DNA from: Thioclava marina
GTDB lineage: Bacteria; Pseudomonadota; Alphaproteobacteria; Rhodobacterales; Rhodobacteraceae
Reading direction: 5' to 3'
Length of the DNA stretch: 64,000 bases
Assembly: GCF_002020135.1 (NCBI RefSeq)
Contig: NZ_MPZS01000003.1
Location: 496,001 to 560,000, forward strand
Each line of letters starts with the position of its first letter. Position 1 is the first letter of the stretch. Under the pieces are notes generated by a model, which was not told the DNA's origin, ran no database searches, and was given only the letters and a program-made list of their open reading frames with translations. This document shows, piece by piece, positions 24,299-34,881 of this stretch. Made by a program: the position numbers and the translations under genes.

Positions 24299-24343
24299 TG
24301 GGTGTCGGTTGCGCAAACCGGAAGACGAGAAAGACGCCCCAAT

Positions 24344-24480
24344 CCGCCGCGCGCAGTGAGGAAGGTCGGTTGGCGTGTGTGCATTTGCTGCACCAAGCCG
24401 TTCTGGAGTGAGGACACCACCCGCCAACGCCTGTGTGGCGAGTGCAAAGCGCCTCCGAAGGTGCAGAGACGAACACCATA
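24344..24480 (+). pseudogene. 3' remnant of the island zinc-ribbon gene
   Basis: Translation ending at the TAA at 24478-24480 gives VRKVGWRVCICCTKPFWSED and on to RLCGECKAPPKVQRRTP. This matches the C-terminus of the intact protein ending at 34534 with a few substitutions. Both CxxC pairs are preserved. The 5' part is missing; upstream sequence is unrelated and abuts the dctM hairpin. It indicates that most of a sister element was deleted. Confidence 0.75.
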
Positions 24481-24603
24481 ACCGTCGCGCGGAGTGGCAG
24501 CGACGGAGCGGTCTCGCCAACCGCCCGAGGCATAGCGGTTCAGTCCCTCGTTAAACGCAACAACCGCAGTCAGGGCGGGGTAACTCCTTTCCCCGTGACC
24601 TGT
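24481..24603 (+). ncRNA. Conserved structured non-coding block of the islands (left copy)
   Basis: There is no credible reading frame. The block is nearly identical to 34534-34656, with only a handful of changes, while adjacent coding sequence has diverged more. Self-complementary pairs include CCGTCGC/GCGACGG (24482-24506), GCGGT/ACCGC and GGGG/CCCC near 24578-24596. It runs directly into an 11-bp terminator stem. A small RNA, a packaging site or an origin-like element are all possible. Confidence 0.35.
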
Positions 24604-24638
24604 AAGCGCCTCGGGAACATGGCTTCCGGGGCGCTTTT
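24604..24638 (+). terminator. Intrinsic terminator at the end of the left repeat
   Basis: The stem AAGCGCCTCGG pairs with CCGGGGCGCTT (11 bp with one G-T) and is followed by TTTT. It overlaps the stop codon of the convergent DUF4145 pseudogene, so it may act in both directions. Confidence 0.75.
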
Positions 24639-25421
24639 ACTTGCCGTCGCGCTTCTCAATCGCTTTGCGTGCATCTTCCGGGAGCGCCGCGTAGACCTCA
24701 TCAACGTGCTTGGGTTCGGAGATCATCTTTTCCACGATCAGATTGAGTAGCCGGAAGAGGCTTTCAGCGGTCGCCCTATCGTCCTTGAGGTCGATCTGAC
24801 CGGGGTGGACAGCGTTGTTCCCAACCACCCGCACCACATCGAGGGCCTTCTGAATGCGAGGGTCGAGGCCGCCTGCAACAAGGGCTTTGATGTCGTCGTT
24901 GATGTTCTTGCCCGGCTGACCGAGGTGCTTGCACAATTTCTGGATGCCGAGACGGTGAGAGCCGCCGCCCCTCTAGCCGACAGGTCAAGGATAGTGCTGG
25001 CCTCATCGTAGTCCCGGCGAATTTCCTCTGGCATGTCGGGGTTGGCAGGCGGTGCTTCCCCCCGCGTAGGGTAGACTAGACGGTCATAGATCCAGACGCT
25101 GATCTGGTCGCAATTGTAGCATCGCGAAATACTGACGTTGTTTAGGTCGAAGTCGACGTATTGGCTCTTCTTCCTTTTTTCTAGGTAGGGGAAGCCCTTA
25201 CCCATCTTGTTCGCCCAGTCGGTCATCTCCTGCTTGAATTCGCGGTCCTCGATGTCGTCGAAGTTGAACTGCTTAGCCCCTTTTTCGCCTACCACCGTGG
25301 GCAAGGGGTAGTCTCGGCTCCTGGGCTCGCCGAAGGCCGCGTACCAGAATTGTGTACACAGGGCGCTACAGTGCGGGCAGTTGAAGGCGGTCTCGTTGAC
25401 CGAGGGGGAAACGTATTTCAT
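24637..25421 (-). pseudogene. DUF4145-type protein gene, frameshifted
   Basis: The N-terminal part (ATG at 25421, MKYVSPSVNE) carries two zinc-ribbon CxxC pairs (CPHC and CYNC), typical of DUF4145 proteins. The domain then continues in another frame: [20 protein letters not shown], then [17 protein letters not shown], to a TAA at 24637. Adding one C in the minus-strand run CTCACC (about 24955-24961) restores [12 protein letters not shown], the expected helix. It is either a real inactivating deletion or a sequencing error. DUF4145 proteins often accompany restriction and other defence genes. It lies between the sister-element repeat and its att copy, in the position of end cargo. Confidence 0.75.
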
Positions 25422-25519
25422 GCGCAAGCCACTGAATCGAAACGAGGGTTACTGAAATCTAGCACGTTGGATGTGGCAACGAAACCGAACGTCGACGTTT
25501 GCTTGCTAATTGGTTGCTA

Positions 25520-25632
25520 GGTAGGTCTGGAACTACAAAGACCGCCAGTGGCGGTCTCGGTAAGTAGCTGCTTTTATTTGAGATTTTGGCTCCGGCGGTA
25601 GGGATCGAACCTACGACCAATTGATTAACAGT
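25520..25632. repeat. Left copy of the 113-bp tRNA-Asn-derived repeat, including attL
   Basis: This aligns without gaps to 34740-34852 (offset 9220) with about 7 mismatches. The last 46 bp (25587-25632) are identical and equal the tRNA-Asn sequence from the anticodon loop to the CCA end. The rest contains the terminator hairpin found downstream of the tRNA. It is the left junction of the integrated element and also the relic right end of the older sister element. Confidence 0.9.
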
Positions 25633-25784
25633 ATCGGGCGGGCGAGCTATACCCAGCTCTATGTTCCTATATGTAGCTATATTTATTAACGATTTCAGTT
25701 GCTTGGCTCGAACGATAAGCCCTAAGCAAATAGCTCGTAGCTATATCGCTCGTGCTTACGACTTGCTTATGAGGAGCCAAGACC

Positions 25785-27098
25785 ATGCCCAAGCCGACCT
25801 CGAAACACCCGCCCGTGAAGCTCACCAAGGGCTACGTCGACCGCATCAAGCCCGGTCCCAAGGACGAGTTCCATTGGGACACCGACACCAAGGGGTTCGG
25901 CGTCCGCTGCACCCCCACAGGCAAGCTCACCTTCGTCGTCCAGGGGCGCCCGAACCCCGACAAGCCCGCTGCCCGCATCACCATTGGTCCCTATGGCGTG
26001 TTCACCGTGGACAATGCGCGCGTCACCGCCCGCGAATACCTGCTCGACATGGCCAAGGGTATCGACCCGCGCGCGGTGAAGAAGCAGGAGCAGGCAGAGG
26101 GGGTGACGCTGAAGGAGGTCTATGACAGCTACGTCAGCCGACCCGGCAAGCTCAAGGCGAGCACCCGCCAGTGGTATGGGTTCTACGTCACCAAGGTGTT
26201 CGCTGACTGGCAGCATCGCCCTGTGGTGGAGATCACCCGCGACATGGTGCGGGAGCGGCACGGCAAGATCATGGCCGAGGGCCTGCCGGGGAAGAAGCGT
26301 AAGGGCGGGGCACCGGCCAGCGCCAATAGCGCAATGACCGTGCTGCGCATCCTGCTCAACTACGCCGCCGACGAGCACGAGCTTGCCGATGGCACGCCGT
26401 TGATCCCCGTTAACCCGGTTCGCGCGATGAAGCGTCACTGGGCACCGGCAGGGGACCGCAGCGAGTGGTATATCCCCTTCGACCGGGTCGGGGCGGTCTG
26501 GAACATGCTGCATGAGGCGCGCGCCACGGCACGCAACCGGGATGCACGCGCCGGGGTCAACTACGTCATGTTCCTGATGCTGGTTGGCCGACGCCGTGGG
26601 GAAGCGCAGAGTCTCCGTTGGGACGAGGTTCACATCGACCGCGACGACCCGTCCGCGTCTTACTGGTTCCTCCGGGACCAGAAGTTCGGCAAGCCGGTGC
26701 GGTTGCCCCTGTCGTCTGCTGCGATTGCGGTGCTCGACGCTTGCGAGCGGGTCGAGGGGAATGACCATGTGTTCCCGAGCAGGGGTAAGAGCGGCCACAT
26801 CCGCGATCCTCGCGCGACATTCGACAGGGTGGACAAGGCGGCCGGGCGAAAGGTCGGGGCACACGGGCTGCGGCGCACGCTGGTCAATGTCGCGCAGAGG
26901 GAGTTTGATATTGAGCGGTTTCGCATCAAGATGCTGGTCGGCCACCAGCCGGACGCGAGCGACGTGACCGCGCGCTATTACACCGACTTGTCCGACCTGA
27001 CGTTCCTTCACCCGGTCATTGAGACCGTGGGTGAGTGGGTCGTGCAGAAAGGTCGGGTCGCGGCAGGCGAGAACGTGGTGTCGCTGCGGGCTTCGTGA
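25785..27098 (+). CDS. Tyrosine recombinase/integrase
   Basis: A 437-residue site-specific recombinase that would insert and excise the island at tRNA-Asn. The N-terminal DUF4102-like arm-binding region (GFGVRCTPTGKLTFVVQGR) is followed by a SAM-like core-binding domain. The catalytic domain shows Arg near 268 (LVGRRRGEAQSLRW), HGLRR near 361-364, GHQ near 386 and Tyr near 396 (ARYYTDL). GAGGAG precedes the ATG. It lies 153 bp inside attL and reads into the element. Confidence 0.95.
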   Translation: MPKPTSKHPPVKLTKGYVDRIKPGPKDEFHWDTDTKGFGVRCTPTGKLTFVVQGRPNPDKPAARITIGPYGVFTVDNARVTAREYLLDMAKGIDPRAVKKQEQAEGVTLKEVYDSYVSRPGKLKASTRQWYGFYVTKVFADWQHRPVVEITRDMVRERHGKIMAEGLPGKKRKGGAPASANSAMTVLRILLNYAADEHELADGTPLIPVNPVRAMKRHWAPAGDRSEWYIPFDRVGAVWNMLHEARATARNRDARAGVNYVMFLMLVGRRRGEAQSLRWDEVHIDRDDPSASYWFLRDQKFGKPVRLPLSSAAIAVLDACERVEGNDHVFPSRGKSGHIRDPRATFDRVDKAAGRKVGAHGLRRTLVNVAQREFDIERFRIKMLVGHQPDASDVTARYYTDLSDLTFLHPVIETVGEWVVQKGRVAAGENVVSLRAS

Positions 27099-27189
27099 GG
27101 GGTGAACCCGGCGCTGCAATTTGTTCCAAGCTTCAATTGAACCACTACTGATAGTGTCGTATAGGTGCTGATCTACATAGGAGAGTAGT

Positions 27190-28122
27190 TTGTCGTTCCT
27201 GCCGCGCGCGATTCGTCCAAAAGCCCCGCCGATCAAGACACAAGGCATCAAAACCAAAGTCGTACCATTGATTGCCCGCTCTATCGTGTGGGATGGTGAG
27301 GGACGGTGGATAGAGCCGTTCCTTGGGTCCGGCGTCGTGGCGCTGAACATCGGCCCGCAACGAGCCGTTCTTGCAGACACCAACGAGCACATGATCGACC
27401 TCTATCGCGGCATTCAAGATGGCGCGATCAACGGGCGCTCGATGCGGCAGTACCTCGAACGCGAAGGCTCCGAACTACTCGACAAAGGCGAGTCGCATTA
27501 CTACGCAGTGCGCGAACGCTTCAACGAGCACGGCGATCCGTTCGACTTCGTGTTCCTGAGCCGCTCCTGTTTCAACGGCATGATGCGGTTCAACAAGAAG
27601 GGTGGGTTCAACGTGCCTTTCTGCCGAAAGCCCGAACGCTTCCGGCCTGCGCTCGTGACCAAGATCGTGAACCAAGTCGAGTGGGCGCGGGGAGCGATGG
27701 AAGGCAAGGACTGGGATTTTGTTGTGCAGGACTGGCGAGCAACGATTGCGTCGGCGAAACCCGGCGACATGATCTACTGCGATCCGCCTTACGTTGGCCG
27801 GCACACGGACTACTACAACGGCTTCACCGACGAGGAATCCGACGACCTTGCACGGGCGCTGATCGCGACCGATGCGTCCTTCGCTCTGTCGAACTGGCTC
27901 GAGAATAAGTACCGCCGCAACGAATATGTCGACCGCTGGTTCTCAAGCCACCCGCAGCGAACCATGTCGCACTTCTATCATGTCGGTCCGCAAGAGGCCT
28001 TGCGGAACGAGATGACCGAAGTGGTGATCCTATCAACGTGTGCGGCGGCTGAGCCTGTTGAGGAGACGCAGAAGGAGTCTTCGCTACCCCTGTTTGAAGC
28101 TGCGGAACTCACCGATGTTTGA
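27190..28122 (+). CDS. Type II adenine-specific DNA methyltransferase, EcoRV-type (predicted GATATC)
   Basis: A 310-residue D12-class N6-adenine methyltransferase. Motif I reads WIEPFLGSGVVALNI and the catalytic motif IV is DPPY in YCDPPYVGRH. Blocks such as PPIKTQGIKTKVVPLI, SRSCFNGMMRFNKKGGFNVP and FCRKPERF resemble M.EcoRV. The start is a TTG at 27190 with AGGAGAG upstream. It faces a gene that is plainly an EcoRV homologue, and the two overlap tail to tail by 39 bp. It would protect host GATATC sites. Family call is certain; specificity is inferred mainly from the partner enzyme. Confidence 0.92.
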   Translation: MSFLPRAIRPKAPPIKTQGIKTKVVPLIARSIVWDGEGRWIEPFLGSGVVALNIGPQRAVLADTNEHMIDLYRGIQDGAINGRSMRQYLEREGSELLDKGESHYYAVRERFNEHGDPFDFVFLSRSCFNGMMRFNKKGGFNVPFCRKPERFRPALVTKIVNQVEWARGAMEGKDWDFVVQDWRATIASAKPGDMIYCDPPYVGRHTDYYNGFTDEESDDLARALIATDASFALSNWLENKYRRNEYVDRWFSSHPQRTMSHFYHVGPQEALRNEMTEVVILSTCAAAEPVEETQKESSLPLFEAAELTDV

Positions 28123-28821
28123 AAAGTCGCTGCGGTCAGCTTTCGTGCGACCGTAGGCGCGCCAGTAGGCAAGGAACTCGTCCTCGGATTCGAACGGCCC
28201 ATTGCCCGCGCGAAAATCTTCAATCGTGCCGTTGATGGAGCCGATGTTAGTGGTGTTACCGCTGCCCGCACGGTCGGACGAAATGCGCCATTTCTCCTGC
28301 ACAAACACCTCGACATTGCCGAAGGGCAGCGGAATGTCGGTTAACTGGTCGACCGAGAACTTGTGCTCAGCTTGCGCTTTCTTCTCCGCGATCCGATTGT
28401 AAACGAACCCGATCACCCAGTGTTCCGCGTAGTGATCGAACGGGAAGACAATGTTCTTCTTCTCGTTTCCAGGCCGGATGAAACTGGTGTAGCCGCCGAG
28501 GGTATAGCTGAACTTGTCGTCGTCGTGAATGCGGTAGGTCGTCTTCACGTCGACGGCGATCTTGCCCATCGCGCCAATGCCTCTGTGGAAAGTGAAGTCC
28601 GGGTAGTGGTTCTGCACGGTCGGTTCGAGGCATTCATACCCAAGCGCTTTCGCCGTCGCATAGACTGCGGGGCGGCTGACCAACTCGAAGATGGTGCTCA
28701 GGACCTTGGTGTCTGCGCCGAGCGGATATACACATCCGGACTGATCCACGATGCCGCAAACGCCATAGCTGTCAGCCAGTTTGTCCAGCTCGTTCGTCAA
28801 AGTTTCCTGTAGTTCTGACAC
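28084..28821 (-). CDS. Type IIP restriction endonuclease, EcoRV homologue (predicted GATATC)
   Basis: A 245-residue enzyme, the same size as R.EcoRV. Active-site residues are conserved: Pro74-Asp75 in QNHYPDF, and Asp91 and Lys93 in AVDVKTTY (EcoRV D74, D90, K92). The DNA-recognition R-loop GSGNTTNIGS (186-195) and Q-loop QN (70-71) match EcoRV as remembered, so blunt cleavage at GATATC is predicted. Other shared blocks are YPLGADTKVLSTIFEL, YTLGGYTSFIR and EDEFLAYWR. The start is a GTG at 28821 behind GGAGG. It is convergent with its methylase gene; no controller (C) protein gene is seen. High GC suits long residence in this lineage. Confidence 0.95.
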   Translation of the reverse strand: MSELQETLTNELDKLADSYGVCGIVDQSGCVYPLGADTKVLSTIFELVSRPAVYATAKALGYECLEPTVQNHYPDFTFHRGIGAMGKIAVDVKTTYRIHDDDKFSYTLGGYTSFIRPGNEKKNIVFPFDHYAEHWVIGFVYNRIAEKKAQAEHKFSVDQLTDIPLPFGNVEVFVQEKWRISSDRAGSGNTTNIGSINGTIEDFRAGNGPFESEDEFLAYWRAYGRTKADRSDFSNIGEFRSFKQG

Positions 28822-29167
28822 CTCAGCCTCCGAGATTCTATCTATTTTCTCAAGACTTATCGAAGGAAGCTGGTCGGGTCAAAATGAACCGAGCGCGGAA
28901 GCACTGTGATGGGCGCAATGGGAGGGGATTTATCCATGTGCAGAAAGAGCTTGCTCGACCTAGTCGCGGCAACGTATAGGTACGTATGCCCTCAGCTAAA
29001 TGAGGGTCGTGCCGGAGACGGGGCACACTAAGAATACTGTCTCCGAGATCCGATGAAGCAAGGGTAGCCAGTCCCCCAGGGCATCGGACACTGCCAGATC
29101 GGCATTCGGCCTGATCTGGTGCTGGTGACCACAGCGCAAGCCAACACTTGTCGCCGGAGTCACCTGA
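28822..29167. other. Intergenic region without a supported gene
   Basis: This 346-bp region separates the endonuclease start from the HTH gene. An open minus-strand frame here has no family resemblance or start signals. It should hold the endonuclease promoter (minus strand) and the promoter of the replication module (plus strand); none was located with confidence. Confidence 0.4.
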
Positions 29168-29491
29168 ATGACCCAAACGATTGATCTGAACGACCTGCTG
29201 ACCAATGAGGACGCGGCGCGCCTCCTTGGCATCAAACCCACCACCCTCGAAATGTGGCGCTACCTCGGGAAAGGACCGCCCTTCCTGAAACTCGGTGACG
29301 TGCCGCAGTCGCCCGTCCGCTACCTGCGCTCGGCAGTCATGGCTTGGCTGGCTGAACGCTCCTACCGCAACACCAGCGAAGCGACCGCCGCGATGCGCGT
29401 TGCCCCGGTGAAGGTCGCGCCCGGTGCAATCCCCGGTCCTTGGACGAACGGGAAACGCAACGTCAACCAGTCGGGCGGTGCATCGGAATGA
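29168..29491 (+). CDS. AlpA/excisionase-like helix-turn-helix protein
   Basis: A 107-residue protein whose N-terminal 65 residues form a MerR-like winged helix (LTNEDAARLLGIKPTTLEMW, then SPVRYLRSAVMAWLAE). The Ala/Pro-rich tail is disordered. Such proteins act as excisionases or early activators in P4-like and integrative elements, here between the restriction-modification pair and the primase. Which of these roles it has cannot be told from sequence. Confidence 0.8.
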   Translation: MTQTIDLNDLLTNEDAARLLGIKPTTLEMWRYLGKGPPFLKLGDVPQSPVRYLRSAVMAWLAERSYRNTSEATAAMRVAPVKVAPGAIPGPWTNGKRNVNQSGGASE

Positions 29492-29633
29492 AATTGCTGT
29501 CGAACTTTGAAGTGACGGTTCGTCGGCAAGCCTGCCGTAAGCCCACTTCACGAAAACAGCCGGGCGCTGAGCACACCCGGCTGTCGATCGTCTACCCCTG
29601 CCAACAGCCTGATACGAGGAAGGACTGGTCGGC

Positions 29634-31715
29634 ATGGACACGGTAACAGAACCGGCGATCGGTCCGCAAACGAACGCAACCTTCCCCACCTTCACCGCGA
29701 TGCAGGCGGTCCGCCGCTGGCTGATCGCCGCGCCCGACAAGGTGCCGCATTATGCCAACGGGACGAAGCGGCATGGCACGCTGGACACGCCCGCCGACTG
29801 GCAGCAACTCGTGAGCTATAGCGAAGCGCGCTCGGCACGGGACGCGAGGGGCGAAGGCTGGATGCTCGGTTTCGCCCTCGGTCCTGATGGCACAGGCGGA
29901 CATTGGCAGGGTATCGACCTCGACAGCGTGGATCAGAACCGCCTCGCGGGTTTGGCGAACGATGCCCCCGGATACGTCGAGGTCAGCCCGAGCGGTCAGG
30001 GCGCGCACGCCATCGGCTACGGTCGGTCCTTCACTACGTTGGGGTCCAACGGCAGCGGGATCGAGGCATACGCGGCGGGGCGCTACTTCACCGTCACCGA
30101 GCACCCCATCAGGGATAGCGGCACGGTCTGTCTGGCCAGCTATGTTGAGCAGGCGCTTGCGCCTCGGCATGGTGCCGCGCGTGCACAGAGCGCCGGGAAC
30201 GTGGAGACGGTGCCTGTCGATGCCAAAACGGTGACGGAACTGCGCTCCGCGCTCATGCACATGCCCGCCGACGAGTATCACCTCTGGGTGCGGGTCGGCA
30301 TCGCACTGCGCGAGCTTGGCGCGACCGGGCGCGGACTGTGGCTTGAGTGGTCCGCCACCTCGGAGAAGTTCGACCCGAAGCAGGCCGCCCGCAAGTGGGA
30401 GACCTTCAACCCGACTGGCACAGGCTATCAGGCCGTGTTCGCTGAGGCGCAGCGGCAGGGGTGGGTGAACCCGGCAAGCGGTGCCGCCCAGCTTGGCGCA
30501 CCGGCCGCAGCCCCGTCACCCGTTGAGAGTGCCACTGACCTTCTGACGCGGCTGAGCGTGGACTGGACCGACGACGAGGACGACGAGGTGCCCGACATTG
30601 TGGACGGACTGGTGGCTGACGAGGACGTGACGCTGCTTGGCGGGCACGGTGGCGTCGGCAAATCGTTCCTCGCCTTGCAGATGGCGTGCGCCGTGGCGCT
30701 TGGTGAGACCGTGCTTGGCTGCGATACGCGGCAGGCACGCGTCCTCTACTACTCAGCCGAAGACGGTCGCAAACGGCTGAAACGCCGCCTGCGGCGGGTC
30801 ACGGAGACCTTCGACTACGACCCCGAGGGGTTGCAGGGCAACCTCCTCGTGCTCGATGCCAGTGAGCTTGAACCGCTCTACGGTGAGGAACTGAGGGACG
30901 TGGGCACGGCGGGCAGGGTGCTTATGATGAAGAACCTCGGGGACACAGGCACCTTCCGCAACCTGCAAGCGATGGTCGAGCGCTTCGACCCGCAGCTTGT
31001 GATTGTCGATGGTGCGTCCGACACCTTTGACGGGAACGAGATTGCCCGCCGCGAGGTGCGCGCGTTCATCAAGCTCCTGCGACAGGTGCACCCGACCCGG
31101 AAGATCGGAGTGCTGCTGATGGTCCACATCGACCGGGCCAGTGCGCGCGGCTACGGGTCCAACGACGATGGCTATGCAGGCAGCGCGCAATGGCACAACT
31201 CGTGCCGCCGCCGGATGTATCTGCAACAGAAGGTCGAGAAGGACGACGATGACGGGTCGATCATCAGCGAGAGCTTCTTGCTCCGGGTGATGAAGAACAC
31301 CGATGGCAAGCCTGTGCCAGACCGCGAGTTGGCGCGCGACAACAACGGGCTGTGGCAGGCAGGGGTGCACATTGGAGGCGACCTGGCGGGTGAGCAGCAA
31401 CAAGACGTGCGCGAGGTGATCGCCACGCTGATCCGCGAATACTATGAACGGGAGGAGTTCATCAGCGCGTCTTTGGCGGCGAACGCACCAACCGGCGCGC
31501 ACGCCAGCCTTAGCGGTGACCCTCGGTGGCCGCGCAAACTGCGGAGGGCGAAGCAGACGAATGAGGTGCTGCGCGACATGGTGCGCGACGGCATCCTTGC
31601 CAAGGAACCCTACAAGCGACCGAACCGGACCACCGGCGAGCGGTGGATGGTGCAGCGCGACCCGAGCAAGCCCTTTGAACGGAACGCACACGGTGCACAC
31701 AGTGGCACACGGTAA
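29634..31715 (+). CDS. Primase-helicase replication protein (prim-pol/PriCT-2/RepA-like AAA)
   Basis: A 693-residue protein likely to replicate the excised element. The N-terminal prim-pol-like region carries WQGIDLDSVD (metal-binding Asp pair) and SPSGQGAHAIGYG. A PriCT-2-like helical region lies at about 195-285 (ALMHMPADEYHLWVRVGIAL). The C-terminal RepA/RecA-like helicase has Walker A GGHGGVGKS near 337-345 and Walker B LVIVDGASD near 456. The C-terminal winged-helix-like tail is basic. GAGGAAGG lies 12 bp before the ATG. The domain set recalls the P4 alpha protein in role, though not in order. Confidence 0.85.
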   Translation: MDTVTEPAIGPQTNATFPTFTAMQAVRRWLIAAPDKVPHYANGTKRHGTLDTPADWQQLVSYSEARSARDARGEGWMLGFALGPDGTGGHWQGIDLDSVDQNRLAGLANDAPGYVEVSPSGQGAHAIGYGRSFTTLGSNGSGIEAYAAGRYFTVTEHPIRDSGTVCLASYVEQALAPRHGAARAQSAGNVETVPVDAKTVTELRSALMHMPADEYHLWVRVGIALRELGATGRGLWLEWSATSEKFDPKQAARKWETFNPTGTGYQAVFAEAQRQGWVNPASGAAQLGAPAAAPSPVESATDLLTRLSVDWTDDEDDEVPDIVDGLVADEDVTLLGGHGGVGKSFLALQMACAVALGETVLGCDTRQARVLYYSAEDGRKRLKRRLRRVTETFDYDPEGLQGNLLVLDASELEPLYGEELRDVGTAGRVLMMKNLGDTGTFRNLQAMVERFDPQLVIVDGASDTFDGNEIARREVRAFIKLLRQVHPTRKIGVLLMVHIDRASARGYGSNDDGYAGSAQWHNSCRRRMYLQQKVEKDDDDGSIISESFLLRVMKNTDGKPVPDRELARDNNGLWQAGVHIGGDLAGEQQQDVREVIATLIREYYEREEFISASLAANAPTGAHASLSGDPRWPRKLRRAKQTNEVLRDMVRDGILAKEPYKRPNRTTGERWMVQRDPSKPFERNAHGAHSGTR

Positions 31716-31800
31716 GCTTTGTGCCAGCGCGTGCACACTGTGCCGCGCCCCGGCACACAGTGTGCGGGGGTATATAGGGGGGACACTGTGCAGTGCCGCT
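31686..31800. other. Cluster of GCACAC/GTGTGC palindromes, candidate replication origin
   Basis: Five GCACAC motifs (31686, 31695, 31705, 31733, 31753) and their complements form overlapping dyads, including the perfect GCACACAGTGTGC (31753-31765) and GCACACTGTGC (31733-31743). They straddle the end of the primase-helicase gene. Iteron-like sites beside a replication gene suggest an origin. No function is proven. Confidence 0.4.
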
Positions 31801-32057
31801 TGGTGCCACCCTCTACGCGCGCGCGTGGTGCCCCACTCCGCCGGGTCGGAACGTAACGGCACGCCTCGCTCCTGTGCCCGCAACTTGCCCGCCTCAGCAG
31901 GCGATGGCGTGGACCCATTGACCATGAGTTAGTTGTTCCGACCCATGTGGATCAGACATAACACATTGATATGAAATGCAAATTCGCTTGTAGAGACCGA
32001 AGAGGGCGCCGTAGCGTAAGCCTACGACAAGCCCCTACTGAGACAAACGAGGATCAA
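31801..32057. other. Non-coding stretch between the palindromes and the next island gene
   Basis: No supported gene. The last 120 bp are more AT-rich and probably hold the promoter for the 32058-34534 gene run. Confidence 0.35.
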
Positions 32058-32804
32058 ATGTCCACCGAGATCAACACGTCGATCACCGCCGACCTTCACC
32101 CCGACACCTTCCGTTCGCAGGTCGGCGTGGATGATGACACCGCACCCTTCATCGCCCCGGCGGTCGAGGCGTTCGAGAGCGCCTATTCCTACCTCGGCAG
32201 CATCTACGCCGTGCGCGAAGCCGCGTTCAGCGACCCGACGCTGACCCCCGAAGCTGCGCTGCTCCGCACCGACGACCACGCCAACGCCAAGCTGGCCGCT
32301 GTCACGCAGAAGTTCGACAGCACCATTGCGCAGTTCACCCGCAGCATCAAATCGCTGGAAAGTGACCTGAGCGCCAGCGTGAAGGAGCAGGCGGGCAAGA
32401 TGGTGAGCGGCGAGGTGCGCGCCCTGATGCAGAAGTCCCCTGACCGCGTTGCGCTGCTTGAAAAGGCGCTGGCCGAGAAGGACGAGGAAGTGCTGTCCGC
32501 CGTGCTGGGCGCGCCGCCCATGCTCAGCGGCTTGAGCAAGGAACTGCACGCCACCTTCCTCCGCGCCTACAACGAGCAGCGCAAGCCCGAGACGACCAAG
32601 CGCCTCAACGCGCTGACCGCTGCCCTCACGCAGCTTGAGAACAAGGGCGGGCTGGTGCTGCGTGAGATGGAGAAGGCAGTCGGGACGGTCCCGGTCCTCA
32701 AGCAGGACAAGGCGGGTGTGACGCGCATCGTCGGGAAGGTCACGCCCCGCGAGGTGCGCGAGAAGCGCAACGCCTCTGCCAAGGTCTACCGGCAGCACGC
32801 CTGA
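32058..32804 (+). CDS. Island protein of unknown function with coiled-coil segments
   Basis: A 248-residue acidic protein of no recognised family. The frame opens at 31971, but the ATG at 32058 has GAGGATCAA upstream and gives MSTEINTSITADLHPD. It is rich in Ala, Glu, Lys and Leu, with heptad-like stretches (about residues 80-130 and 185-220). No signal peptide or membrane segment is seen. It heads a run of small, mostly overlapping genes between the primase-helicase and the zinc-ribbon gene. Position would suit a structural, scaffold or regulatory protein of a satellite, but this is speculation. Confidence 0.75.
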   Translation: MSTEINTSITADLHPDTFRSQVGVDDDTAPFIAPAVEAFESAYSYLGSIYAVREAAFSDPTLTPEAALLRTDDHANAKLAAVTQKFDSTIAQFTRSIKSLESDLSASVKEQAGKMVSGEVRALMQKSPDRVALLEKALAEKDEEVLSAVLGAPPMLSGLSKELHATFLRAYNEQRKPETTKRLNALTAALTQLENKGGLVLREMEKAVGTVPVLKQDKAGVTRIVGKVTPREVREKRNASAKVYRQHA

Positions 32805-32829
32805 TCTGCCCAGTTGATAACAGGTTGCC

Positions 32830-33279
32830 ATGACTGACGAAAACCAGACCGAACCACATGAGCCGACCCACGGCCCGGATGGACGCTTCCTTCCGGGTCG
32901 GAGCGGCAACCCTCGCGGTCGCCCACCGGGACCGTCGAAGCAGCAAGCGCTTCTGAACAAGATGCTGGACGAGGCGAATGGCATCCTCGACGCCGTTATC
33001 GCCAAGGCACACGAGGGCGACCCGAGCGCCGCCGCGCTGGTGCTGTCGCGCATCGTGCCATCGCTCCGCAGCCAGATGAAGACCGTCCAGTTCGACCTCG
33101 ACCCCTCGCTGCCGCTGGCCGCCCAGGTCGAGCAAGTGTTGCTCGCTATCAGCACCGGGCAGCTCGCGCCCGATGTGGGTAAGCAGCTCATCGAGGCAAT
33201 CAGCGCGCTGGGCAACATCCGTGCGCTGGAAGACCTCGAAAGCAGGTTGGCAATTCTGGAAGCCAAGGAGATTCGATGA
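32830..33279 (+). CDS. DUF5681-domain protein
   Basis: A 149-residue protein beginning with the DUF5681 signature (GRFLPGRSGNPRGRPPGPSK), a Gly/Arg/Pro-rich motif common in phage-derived and integrative-element genes, often close to terminase genes. The C-terminal half is helical, with a hydrophobic repeat (AQVEQVLLAISTGQLAPDVG). It lies 25 bp after the preceding gene and overlaps the next by 4 bp (ATGA). A DNA-binding or small-terminase-like role is possible. Confidence 0.8.
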   Translation: MTDENQTEPHEPTHGPDGRFLPGRSGNPRGRPPGPSKQQALLNKMLDEANGILDAVIAKAHEGDPSAAALVLSRIVPSLRSQMKTVQFDLDPSLPLAAQVEQVLLAISTGQLAPDVGKQLIEAISALGNIRALEDLESRLAILEAKEIR

Positions 33280-33665
33280 TGGAAAGCTGTGCGACGATGT
33301 TTCAGGGACGGGTGGCGACCCTCGCACCGGGGCATGGCGACCTGTTCGTGCTCACTCTTCTGGGCGACCGGGTGCTGGCCTATGAACCGATCACCGTCTA
33401 CGACCGCGCAGTGCGGCGCGCCAACGAACTGGCGAAGGTCCGCAGCGAGCGACCGTTCACGGTCAAGGTGCTCGCCCTCAGCGGCAGGGAAGCGCGCAAG
33501 CTGCTCGGCATCAGCGGTGGCATCAGCAGCCTCGCCCCGCACGAGTACGCCGAGCTTCGCGAGCAAATCCGCGCCAACTGCATTGCGGCGCTTGAGACGT
33601 GCCGCGACCCACACGTCATGGCGGATGCCTATGACGTTCTGCGCTGGCTTGGAGCGGTGCAATGA
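33276..33665 (+). CDS. Small island protein of unknown function
   Basis: A 129-residue protein, MMESCATMFQGRVATL onwards, with no recognised domain, membrane segment or signal peptide. Start and stop both sit in 4-bp ATGA overlaps with neighbours, so it is translated as part of the island run. The mix of beta-like N-terminus and helical C-terminus (EYAELREQIRANCIAAL) is all that can be said. Confidence 0.7.
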   Translation: MMESCATMFQGRVATLAPGHGDLFVLTLLGDRVLAYEPITVYDRAVRRANELAKVRSERPFTVKVLALSGREARKLLGISGGISSLAPHEYAELREQIRANCIAALETCRDPHVMADAYDVLRWLGAVQ

Positions 33666-33964
33666 GGCGCGAACCGAACGAACTCCCCTTTACGGGTCGC
33701 TCATGGGATGCCCCCGCGCAGCGACGGGCACAGGTGCCAGAGGAAGACCGGCGCGTCACCTACCACATGGGGCGGGCATATCTGAACGAATCCAGCATCC
33801 GCGACCCTGACCATTCCGTGCAGCCCGCCGACATGCGCGCGCTGCGGGAACTGCACGCGGGCGCGGGGCGGGATCGGCAAGCCCACAAAGACGCCAACCT
33901 TGCTGCCGCGCTGTGCCTCGGTGCCGCGCTCAAGGTGTTCAAGGGCGAGGCGGACGATGAGTAG
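33662..33964 (+). CDS. Small island protein of unknown function
   Basis: A 100-residue, Arg- and Asp-rich soluble protein (MRREPNELPFTGRSWDAP) with no recognised family. The tail AALCLGAALKVFKGEADDE is helical. It is coupled to its neighbours by an upstream ATGA overlap and an 8-bp overlap downstream. Confidence 0.68.
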   Translation: MRREPNELPFTGRSWDAPAQRRAQVPEEDRRVTYHMGRAYLNESSIRDPDHSVQPADMRALRELHAGAGRDRQAHKDANLAAALCLGAALKVFKGEADDE

Positions 33965-34157
33965 CGCACGGTCACTACTGACCCGTGTCGCTCGGCTTGA
34001 AGCAGCACGCGCACCCAAGCTCTCGCGCATCGCCAAGGCCTACGGCAGCTTCGACGCCTTCGCTGAGCAGGTGCGCCGGGACATGGAGGCCGGGGTGCTG
34101 GACCGCGACTTTCCGCTTCCGCACCTCGAACGGTGGGAGCGCGAGAAGCTGTGCTGA
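33957..34157 (+). CDS. Small basic island protein of unknown function
   Basis: A 66-residue protein starting at the ATG at 33957 inside the end of the previous gene (MSSARSLLTRVARLEAARAP). The frame opens earlier, but an overlapping start fits the neighbours. It is highly charged and predicted helical (FDAFAEQVRRDMEAG). No family recognised. Confidence 0.6.
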   Translation: MSSARSLLTRVARLEAARAPKLSRIAKAYGSFDAFAEQVRRDMEAGVLDRDFPLPHLERWEREKLC

Positions 34158-34534
34158 CGGACGAACCTGCATGGCTGGTGGCATGGCGCGAGGGGCGCAC
34201 CGCGCCCGCAGCCCCGGCACAGCGCGGCGCACAGCCGCTGGCCGGGGTGGCTCAAGGGGGTAGCCGCGCGAAACCCCAAGCCCGCGCTGCAAACGGCGCA
34301 AATCGGGGGTCGTCGGGTTTCGCTGAACCGGGGTTCGAGGCATGGCGCTTCGACGGTGGCAAGCGACGGGAAGCTGTCCTTGATCTGGACCACAACCCGC
34401 CGCGCGTAGTGAGGAAAGTCGGCTGGCGCGTGTGCATGTGCTGCGCCAAGCCTTTCTGGAGTGAGGACACCACCCGCCAACGCCTGTGTGGCGAGTGCAA
34501 AGCGCCCCCGAAGGGGCAGAGACGAACACCATAA
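34151..34534 (+). CDS. Zinc-ribbon protein of the island
   Basis: About 127 residues. The first 80 are Ala/Pro/Gly-rich and low complexity. The C-terminus holds a treble-clef or zinc-ribbon-like module, CMCC then CGEC about 20 residues later (WRVCMCCAKPFWSED / RLCGECK), and a basic tail. The start is uncertain: GTG at 34151 has GGAG 11 bp upstream and a 7-bp overlap, while GTG at 34133 gives six more residues. The C-terminal 45 codons recur at 24344-24480. A nucleic-acid-binding role is likely; nothing closer can be said. Confidence 0.65.
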   Translation: MLTDEPAWLVAWREGRTAPAAPAQRGAQPLAGVAQGGSRAKPQARAANGANRGSSGFAEPGFEAWRFDGGKRREAVLDLDHNPPRVVRKVGWRVCMCCAKPFWSEDTTRQRLCGECKAPPKGQRRTP

Positions 34535-34691
34535 CCGTCGCGCGGAGTGGCAGCGACGGTGCGGTCTCGCCAACCGCCCGAGGCATAGCGGTTCAGTCCC
34601 TCGTTAAACGCAACAGCCGCAGTCAGGGCGGGGTATCTCCTTTCCCCGTGACCTGTAAGCGCCTCGGGAACATGGGTTTCGGGGCGCTTTT
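34397..34691 (+). repeat. Right copy of the 295-bp direct repeat
   Basis: Partner of 24344-24638 with no gaps. Here the zinc-ribbon gene is intact, and the terminator is followed only 48 bp later by the tRNA-derived repeat, whereas the left copy has about 830 bp of cargo in that position. Confidence 0.88.
34535..34656 (+). ncRNA. Conserved structured non-coding block of the islands (right copy)
   Basis: Nearly identical to the left block, differing at only a few bases. It carries the same CCGTCGC/GCGACGG stem and GGGG/CCCC pairing. It begins right after the zinc-ribbon stop codon and ends at the terminator. Confidence 0.35.
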
Positions 34692-34693
34692 TT
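34657..34693 (+). terminator. Intrinsic terminator at the right end of the island
   Basis: AAGCGCCTCGG pairs with TCGGGGCGCTT, followed by TTTTTT. It would end transcription of the replication and small-gene module before the tRNA. Confidence 0.8.
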
Positions 34694-34739
34694 GTTGAAC
34701 GAGTCAGCGTGGCCGCGTGTGCTTATGACCTGCTTATGG

Positions 34740-34852
34740 GGTAGGTCTAGAACTACAAAGACCGCCAGTGGCGGTCTCGGTATGTAGCTGTTTTTATTGG
34801 GATTTTTGGCTCCGGCGGTAGGGATCGAACCTACGACCAATTGATTAACAGT
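34740..34852. repeat. Right copy of the tRNA-Asn-derived repeat, including attR
   Basis: Matches 25520-25632. Its last 46 bp are part of the intact tRNA-Asn, so integration kept the tRNA functional, as is usual for tRNA-targeting integrases. Confidence 0.9.
34755..34777 (-). terminator. Terminator hairpin of tRNA-Asn
   Basis: AGACCGCCA/TGGCGGTCT forms a perfect 9-bp arm pair followed on the minus strand by TTTG, 30 bp beyond the tRNA 3' end. The same hairpin is copied at 25539-25557. Confidence 0.6.
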
Positions 34853-34881
34853 CAACTGCTCTACCGCTGAGCTACGCCGGA
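34807..34881 (-). tRNA. tRNA-Asn (anticodon GTT)
   Basis: A 75-nt cloverleaf with encoded CCA. The acceptor TCCGGCG pairs with CGCCGGA, the D arm has AGCTCAGCGGTAGAGC, the anticodon loop CTGTTAA gives GTT, and the T loop reads GGTTCGATCC. Its 3' half is the attachment site of the island. Confidence 0.97.

Follow-up and report, generated by a model that had tools for sequence, protein, structure and literature searches.

Phage-inducible chromosomal islands (PICIs) are small satellites whose plan, in the excerpt available of a published description (PMC6092414), comprises an integrase gene (int), a regulator that is AlpA in the Gram-negative representatives, a replication gene, an origin and sometimes a small terminase gene (terS), with accessory genes placed either between int and the regulator or at the 3' end. 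The phage-inducible chromosomal minimalist islands (PICMIs) of Vibrionaceae need int, alpA and prim, reside next to fis, and have neither capsid-remodelling genes nor identifiable packaging genes, according to the part available of their description (PMC10803314). Here we analysed a 64,000-nt stretch of the Thioclava marina genome (assembly GCF_002020135.1, contig NZ_MPZS01000003.1; hereafter the window, whose positions are used for all coordinates) and describe within it an island of ~9.3 kb (25584-34852; element E1). Based on the data presented below, E1 is likely to be a TerS-bearing, PICI-like, phage-dependent satellite, a reading to which we assign a probability of roughly 0.7 because E1 combines an integrase and attachment (att) repeats at a tRNA gene, AlpA, a replication protein, a gene of a type that neighbours the large terminase gene (TerL), swappable defence cargo, no recognised virion genes, and a size that is uniform among relatives. 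More generally, E1 belongs to a recurring family of PICI-like satellites that probably encode a small terminase of their own and that carry an undescribed covarying pseudoknot.

E1 is flanked by perfect 49-bp copies of the 3' half of tRNA-Asn (GTT; 34807..34881, reverse strand), its integration target. The left copy, attL, lies at 25584..25632, and the right copy, attR, at 34804..34852, within the tRNA gene. The direct repeat had been reported as 46 bp in an initial annotation of this DNA, and while it is indeed exact, its true length is 49 bp; it is enclosed by a larger match of 114 columns at 94.7% identity (25520-25632 and 34740-34852). A specific attachment site with direct repeats, as is characteristic of PICIs, is thereby present in the window element.

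To characterize gene content, we compared every E1 protein except gE67 (ten of eleven) with Pfam and PHROGs, and statements on the families found or absent in E1 refer to these ten. The element begins with a tyrosine integrase (25785..27098, forward strand; Arm-DNA-bind_3 and Phage_integrase in Pfam), followed by a type II restriction-modification cargo that consists of a D12 class N6-adenine methyltransferase (27190..28122, forward; PF02086, 4.5e-35; PADLOC MTase_II, 1.2e-152) and, convergent with it, an EcoRV-type restriction endonuclease (28084..28821, reverse; PF09233, 3.1e-52; PADLOC REase_II, 1.6e-80). Next are an AlpA-like HTH_17 regulator or excisionase (29168..29491, forward; PF12728, 4.5e-9; phrog_66) and a primase-helicase (29634..31715, forward; PriCT_2 and AAA_25 in Pfam), so that integrase, AlpA-type regulator and replication protein stand in PICI order. 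A cluster of CACAC(A/T)GTG palindromes directly 3' of the primase gene (31690..31800) is a candidate replication origin, placed after the replication gene; of two close relatives, L010 carries the same motif at the same place and L011 a different repeat. Six small genes, all on the forward strand, follow: gA277 (32058..32804), an all-helical protein and the most widely shared gene of the family, whose start was set by comparison (the longest open reading frame [ORF] begins at 31971); a DUF5681 protein and probable small terminase (TerS; 32830..33279; PF18932, 3.9e-10), homologues of which have TerL neighbours in phages; the conserved genes gC129 (33276..33665) and gD100 (33662..33964); the small conserved gene gE67 (33957..34157); and the zinc-ribbon-like gF133 (34133..34534), with a C-terminal CxxC...CxxC arrangement. 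No Pfam family scored above cut-off for gA277, gC129, gD100 or gF133, and for gF133 PHROGs gave a short match to phrog_13335 (4e-5), whose function is unknown. A structured block and terminator complete the element.

Much of this organization had been read correctly in the initial annotation, including the integrase at one end, the AlpA-like HTH, the palindrome cluster, a DUF5681 gene among the small genes, the defence cargo, and the terminal structured block. Its "prim-pol/helicase" holds as a primase-helicase, the safer term, given that Pfam reported no archaeo-eukaryotic prim-pol domain for the 29634-31715 protein. The scans also agreed with its statement that virion and conjugation genes are missing: neither Pfam nor PHROGs matched a virion, relaxase or conjugation family in E1, which included the TerL, portal, capsid and tail genes that would mark a prophage and, in Pfam, the relaxase or conjugation genes that would mark a conjugative or mobilisable element. 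With regard to the restriction-modification cargo, the EcoRV site GATATC occurs 0 times in the element versus 1.1 expected by composition, which alone is not telling, and 26 times in the whole 64-kb window versus 6.9 expected.

Two close relatives of the primase-helicase in named genomes are found in L010 (83% identical), an alphaproteobacterial metagenome-assembled genome with its element at tRNA-Pro, and L011 (73%), Sinirhodobacter sp. WL0062, with its element at tRNA-Asn. When core-gene profiles were applied to the ORFs of fetched loci, integrase, AlpA, gA277 and DUF5681 were found in one order and orientation in 11 elements (the window element, L010, L011, L016, L017, L018, L034, L115, L118, L119 and L136), and incomplete members were found in L116, L117, L120, L021 and contig G646. 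Replication genes, cargo and tRNA sites differ among the 11 elements, with integration across members at tRNA-Asn, Pro, Arg, Met and Ser. Repeats of 20-53 bp were present at the ends of nine of the ten members tested, delimiting elements of 8539-9886 bp; L034 was outside these ten, and L016, the one without repeats, has no tRNA in the stretch fetched. gA277 was detected in 9 of 394 sampled genomes of the bacterial family and in 13 of 390 sampled genomes of the order, a sample that overlaps the former and in which several of the 13 are distant matches. This protein had no match among plasmids, and a fold search with it returned no significant match in the PDB, with helical bundles and pores at E 0.16 or worse. 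A small reverse-strand protein (PLPLYL...ARAGRIRAL) was seen ahead of gA277 in L115 (9747-10037 of the reverse-complemented locus), L034 (9540-9944) and L010 (11342-11704), and was not seen in the window.

Virion genes were also sought in the relatives. In 101 script-selected ORFs of 100 aa or more lying within the elements of ten relatives, no virion, terminase or tail family was present in the 25 shown of 31 Pfam families matched, each of the six unshown families matching a single ORF, and a blastp comparison of 688 element ORFs with 55 TerL proteins, one portal protein and one capsid protein returned nothing at 1e-4. The satellite-like family in Rhodobacterales postulated by the initial annotation therefore stands, with 11 elements that share the core order at tRNA-Asn and other tRNAs and carry different cargo, and the structural genes that would have spoken against it were not seen in these scans. 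The description of the family as new likewise agrees with a literature search of titles and the starts of abstracts, mostly outside subscription journals, in which no account of this satellite family in Rhodobacterales or Alphaproteobacteria was among the matches listed.

The DUF5681 protein is probably the island's own small terminase, because its homologues often lie directly upstream of TerL in viral contigs. A profile search of IMG/VR with DUF5681 passed 93 loci, of which 80 were kept, including L035, which lies on the same satellite contig as L034. Downstream of DUF5681, 54 of the 80 have an ORF that is 300 aa or longer and begins between -80 and +1000 nt, and 39 of these 54 ORFs matched phrog_2 (terminase large subunit), which places a TerL neighbour at no fewer than 39 of the 80 viral loci. 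Pfam matched the 54 ORFs to Terminase_6N (29), Terminase_6C (23) and Terminase_3 (17), with overlap between the families. In GenBank, 22 phage records match DUF5681, and in two of four inspected phages, both Vibrio phages, the next gene is annotated as terminase large subunit. The AlphaFold model of the DUF5681 protein consists of four helices (mean pLDDT 82.7). A TerS-like gene without TerL is what would be expected of a packaging hijacker of the PICI type, and such a function is predicted here. Within the same bacterial family, DUF5681 matches occur in 39 of 285 genomes, satellites of the present family included. Seventeen further loci of this bacterial family, fetched from the weaker group of matches, have an integrase match upstream in 11 cases, and comparison with the 55 TerL proteins detected no TerL at any of the 17. 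Six mapped loci (L199, L203, L205, L207, L208 and L212) are short integrase - replication - DUF5681 elements of Rhodobacteraceae, with replication families identified in L205, L207 and L212; they have no gA277 or TerL match and are possibly further satellite families.

Two parts of the element vary conspicuously between members. The replication gene is of the PriCT_2/AAA_25 type in the window, with close homologues in L010, L011 and L016, of an AAA_25-only type in L018, and of a DUF3987 type in L115, L118, L119, L034 and G646. To assess cargo, 13 proteins, three from the window stretch and ten from relatives, were compared with PADLOC; nine had a clear defence-family match, one a weak match and three none. 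The matches in the window stretch are the restriction-modification pair and a PD-T7-4-type gene. Elsewhere, they comprise a retron type VI-like reverse transcriptase in L119, the candidate pair PDC-M34A/B in L017, a PtuA-like ATPase in L016 and, outside the 11 elements, a DndB/DpdB-like protein in L120 and a CAP12-type TIR protein (PDC-S35) in L158. The weak match is a ParA-type ATPase in L018, and the proteins of 140 aa in L119, 238 aa in L120 and 357 aa in L118 had no PADLOC match. Cargo with defence-family matches thus appears swappable between elements. The sequence flanking the tRNA-Asn members (L011, L115, L136 and L116) encodes the same metallo-hydrolase and sensor-kinase neighbours as the window. 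The region or its tRNA was also matched in nine other genomes of the genus, and in the six loci that reach beyond the tRNA (L216-L219, L222 and L223) homology to the window ends at 34799-34807, the tRNA 3' end, as at an integration hotspot.

Immediately to the left of E1, and overlooked in the initial annotation, lies a remnant of a related element in tandem, E2 (24302..25632), a second and now broken member of the family. It contains a gF fragment (24302-24481), a pseudoknot (24526-24567) and a PD-T7-4/DUF4145-type gene with a broken frame (24738-25427, reverse strand; PADLOC PD-T7-4). Positions 24337-24638 repeat the end of gF, the structured block and the terminator (302 bp, 94.7% identity), and the att region is copied at the right end of E2 (25520-25632). 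In L011, an open 269-aa frame of the DUF4145-type gene is found at the same position; the window protein is 95% identical to it over residues 1-158, and the last 72 residues match at 97% in another frame, indicating that the window gene is frame-disrupted relative to L011.

A different kind of neighbour was encountered in G646 (IMG/VR contig 3300048858_000133, loci L164/L166), an 18-kb contig on which AlpA, a DUF3987 gene, cargo, gA277, DUF5681, gC, a small gene, gE and the pseudoknot are followed by a primase (PriCT_2 and DUF5906), TerL (gpA type), portal, protease/capsid and integrase genes. Everything that belongs to the satellite, AlpA through its own pseudoknot block, precedes the capsid genes; the first integrase end is truncated at the contig end, and the pieces read yielded no tRNA. 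It may be that a satellite here adjoins a capsid-forming island or a prophage.

The structured block at the right end of E1 (34535-34693, forward) contains the core of an H-type pseudoknot (34579..34620, forward) and is closed by an intrinsic-terminator-like hairpin and T run (34657..34693, forward). Thirteen copies, from 12 elements or fragments and E2, each 3' of gF or gE, could be aligned as an H-type pseudoknot. Stem S1 (CGNNN/NNNCG) has four types of arm and is paired in 65 of 65 cells; stem S2, which is interleaved with S1, is paired in 82 of 104. When partners were shuffled among sequences, neither value was reached in 20000 trials. The 13 copies include the identical pair L119/L120 and other close kin; with nine deduplicated copies, the S1 value was reached by 9 and the S2 value by 4 of 20000 shuffles. 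Slid registers gave 20-31 of 65 pairs for S1 and 22-40 of 104 for S2. These counts refer to an alignment curated by eye, a procedure that favours the structure, and MAFFT alignments made without structure placed some stems one column out of register. A search for the best pseudoknot in each sequence was dropped, as it settled on other positions in the majority of members and did not consistently outperform shuffled sequences, and pair counting in the conserved core was used instead. The pseudoknot was found in nine of the 11 elements; it went undetected in L018, and L034 stops short of the position of the block.

To search for additional copies, a model (R1) was built from six seeds with S1 only. 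It missed the window copy, which was recognised by alignment, as well as that of L115, and matched L016 and L021 weakly. In 275 genomes, R1 gave matches in 10, with nine places at E <1e-5 that include the members L116, L117, L118 and L017. Upstream of the five new strong places, traces of gE or gF were found in L158, L160, L162 and L161, and none was detected in L159; the L161 trace rests on a drifted gF profile that also matched DUF5681 proteins, and the gF profile was rebuilt from four clean sequences. L163, one of four weak model matches, had no cassette gene detected and was set aside as probably false. In seven further copies, identified by model or pattern, 3-5 of 5 S1 positions and 5-7 of 8 S2 positions are paired, including G-U pairs in L159. 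As the model held S1 only, S2 in these copies is largely independent evidence, with the caveat that several S2 letters were already specified in the pattern by which L164 was identified. At gathering score, Rfam gave no match in the window block (nearest non-tRNA E 0.14) and matches to tRNAs only in L010, L118, L136 and L164, and no published satellite RNA with such a pseudoknot was among the literature matches listed. In L119 and L120, a shared non-coding stretch is present 3' of the pseudoknot, with tails ~76% identical and apparently structured, upstream of a gene of 140-152 aa.

These results imply that the end block is a covarying H-type pseudoknot, both stems of which show compensatory changes, and that it recurs at the ends of other elements. 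Most likely, it forms the 3' part of a transcript as a regulatory or packaging-related RNA, although its role is a guess. A more specific and rather doubtful proposal, which we advance only tentatively, is that it defines a new class of pseudoknotted RNA of Rhodobacteraceae phage satellites that acts in trans with gE, the zinc-ribbon gF and TerS, for instance by steering the helper terminase to satellite DNA or by silencing the helper; if so, packaging redirection in these satellites would be RNA-assisted. It is unlikely that the block is instead a DNA site (a packaging site, or an accessory site for replication or recombination) or a terminator with chance inverted repeats. While the nested minimum-free-energy folds of five members are no better than shuffled sequences (z -0.21 to -0.82), the block is known from sequence alone, and an element end is a possible pac or cos position, the folding program cannot score pseudoknots, two interleaved stems covary beyond every shuffle of the full set, and a few G-U pairs are present, which a DNA cruciform would not favour.

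In the satellite that we envisage, a helper phage would induce AlpA, and the integrase together with AlpA would excise the island. The primase-helicase would then replicate it from the palindrome origin, and its DUF5681 small terminase would recognise island DNA and divert the large terminase and capsids of the helper to it, while the EcoRV-type system would protect the host, and hence the island, from competing phages. Several observations weigh against this reading. Helper dependence, excision and packaging are predicted from sequence. Neither gA277 nor gF133 matched any of 50,697 phage records, leaving most of the cassette unexplained, and in the distant relatives L121 and L137-L142, which keep gA277 and in six of seven cases have an integrase match, no DUF5681 cassette was detected. 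Regarding the small terminase, 26 of the 80 viral loci have no qualifying downstream ORF; the other two phages inspected, Kc259 and Skarpretter, carry one gene between the DUF5681 homologue and TerL that could be the true TerS; the sole paper found naming DUF5681 places the protein in a phage structural proteome, a poor fit to TerS; the DUF5681 model had no significant match in the PDB and a best E of 2.1e-3 in a viral library; and L211, from the group of 17 further loci, shows a capsid-like match on the opposite strand.

Some of these points would suit an integrative defence island for whose movement no specific helper is needed, transfer occurring through gene transfer agents, by generalised transduction or by infrequent mobilisation; DUF5681 and the rest of the cassette would then serve in regulation or in plasmid-like maintenance. 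Rhodobacterales typically carry gene transfer agents, most of the small genes have no phage homologue, and no helper is known, the one terminase family sought in the host genome, Terminase_6N, being matched at one place (C1:386245). However, homologues of DUF5681 frequently adjoin the terminase gene in phages, and the uniform size of 8.5-9.9 kb and the dedicated replication genes fit packaging, and we regard a helper-free island as quite improbable. Descent from a prophage by decay and loss of its virion genes, which the TerS-like gene with an integrase and the adjoining primase, TerL, portal and capsid genes of G646 might suggest, is disfavoured and very improbable, given that independent decay of 11 elements to the same compact order, gene set and size is unlikely, that no virion family was among the 25 of 31 Pfam families shown for the 101 ORFs of ten relatives or found by blastp of the 688 ORFs, and that the satellite part of G646 ends before the capsid genes.

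Viewed as a satellite, E1 introduces an apparently unreported family into Rhodobacterales, an order in which phages and gene transfer agents abound. It offers a function hypothesis for DUF5681, a family named in one paper found, indicates that interchangeable anti-phage genes are carried by these satellites, and adds, with the covarying pseudoknot, a new testable component of satellite biology.

In comparison with known systems, the elements resemble P4-like satellites, to which the initial annotation had likened E1, in tRNA integration, AlpA, primase-helicase and defence cargo. P4 carries the capsid-size and decoration genes sid, psu and delta; no P4 capsid-size or Psu gene was matched by Pfam or PHROGs in E1, and a P4-like classification was rejected, the gene content being closer to the PICI and PICMI plans. 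With PICMIs, as far as their description extends in the part available (PMC10803314), E1 shares small size, int, AlpA and anti-phage cargo, and L115, L118, L119, L034 and G646 share a DUF3987-type primase. In contrast with PICMIs, the family elements are located at tRNAs (tRNA-Asn rather than fis in the window), measure ~9 kb, and carry the DUF5681 (TerS-like) cassette and pseudoknot block. Capsid-forming PICIs are mentioned in the same excerpt; G646 likewise has primase, TerL, portal and capsid genes beside its satellite cassette, whereas the window element has no TerL, portal or capsid family match. Compared to PICIs in general, no PICI interference gene was recognised in E1, the conserved gA-gF genes and pseudoknot block do not figure in the available excerpt of the PICI description (PMC6092414), the E. 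coli PICI studied there has cos sites and is without TerS, and the island integrates at tRNA 3' ends in Rhodobacteraceae. Measured against the plan outlined in that excerpt, the window element has int at one end, AlpA, a replication protein followed by a candidate origin, a candidate terS, and accessory genes in the corresponding positions.

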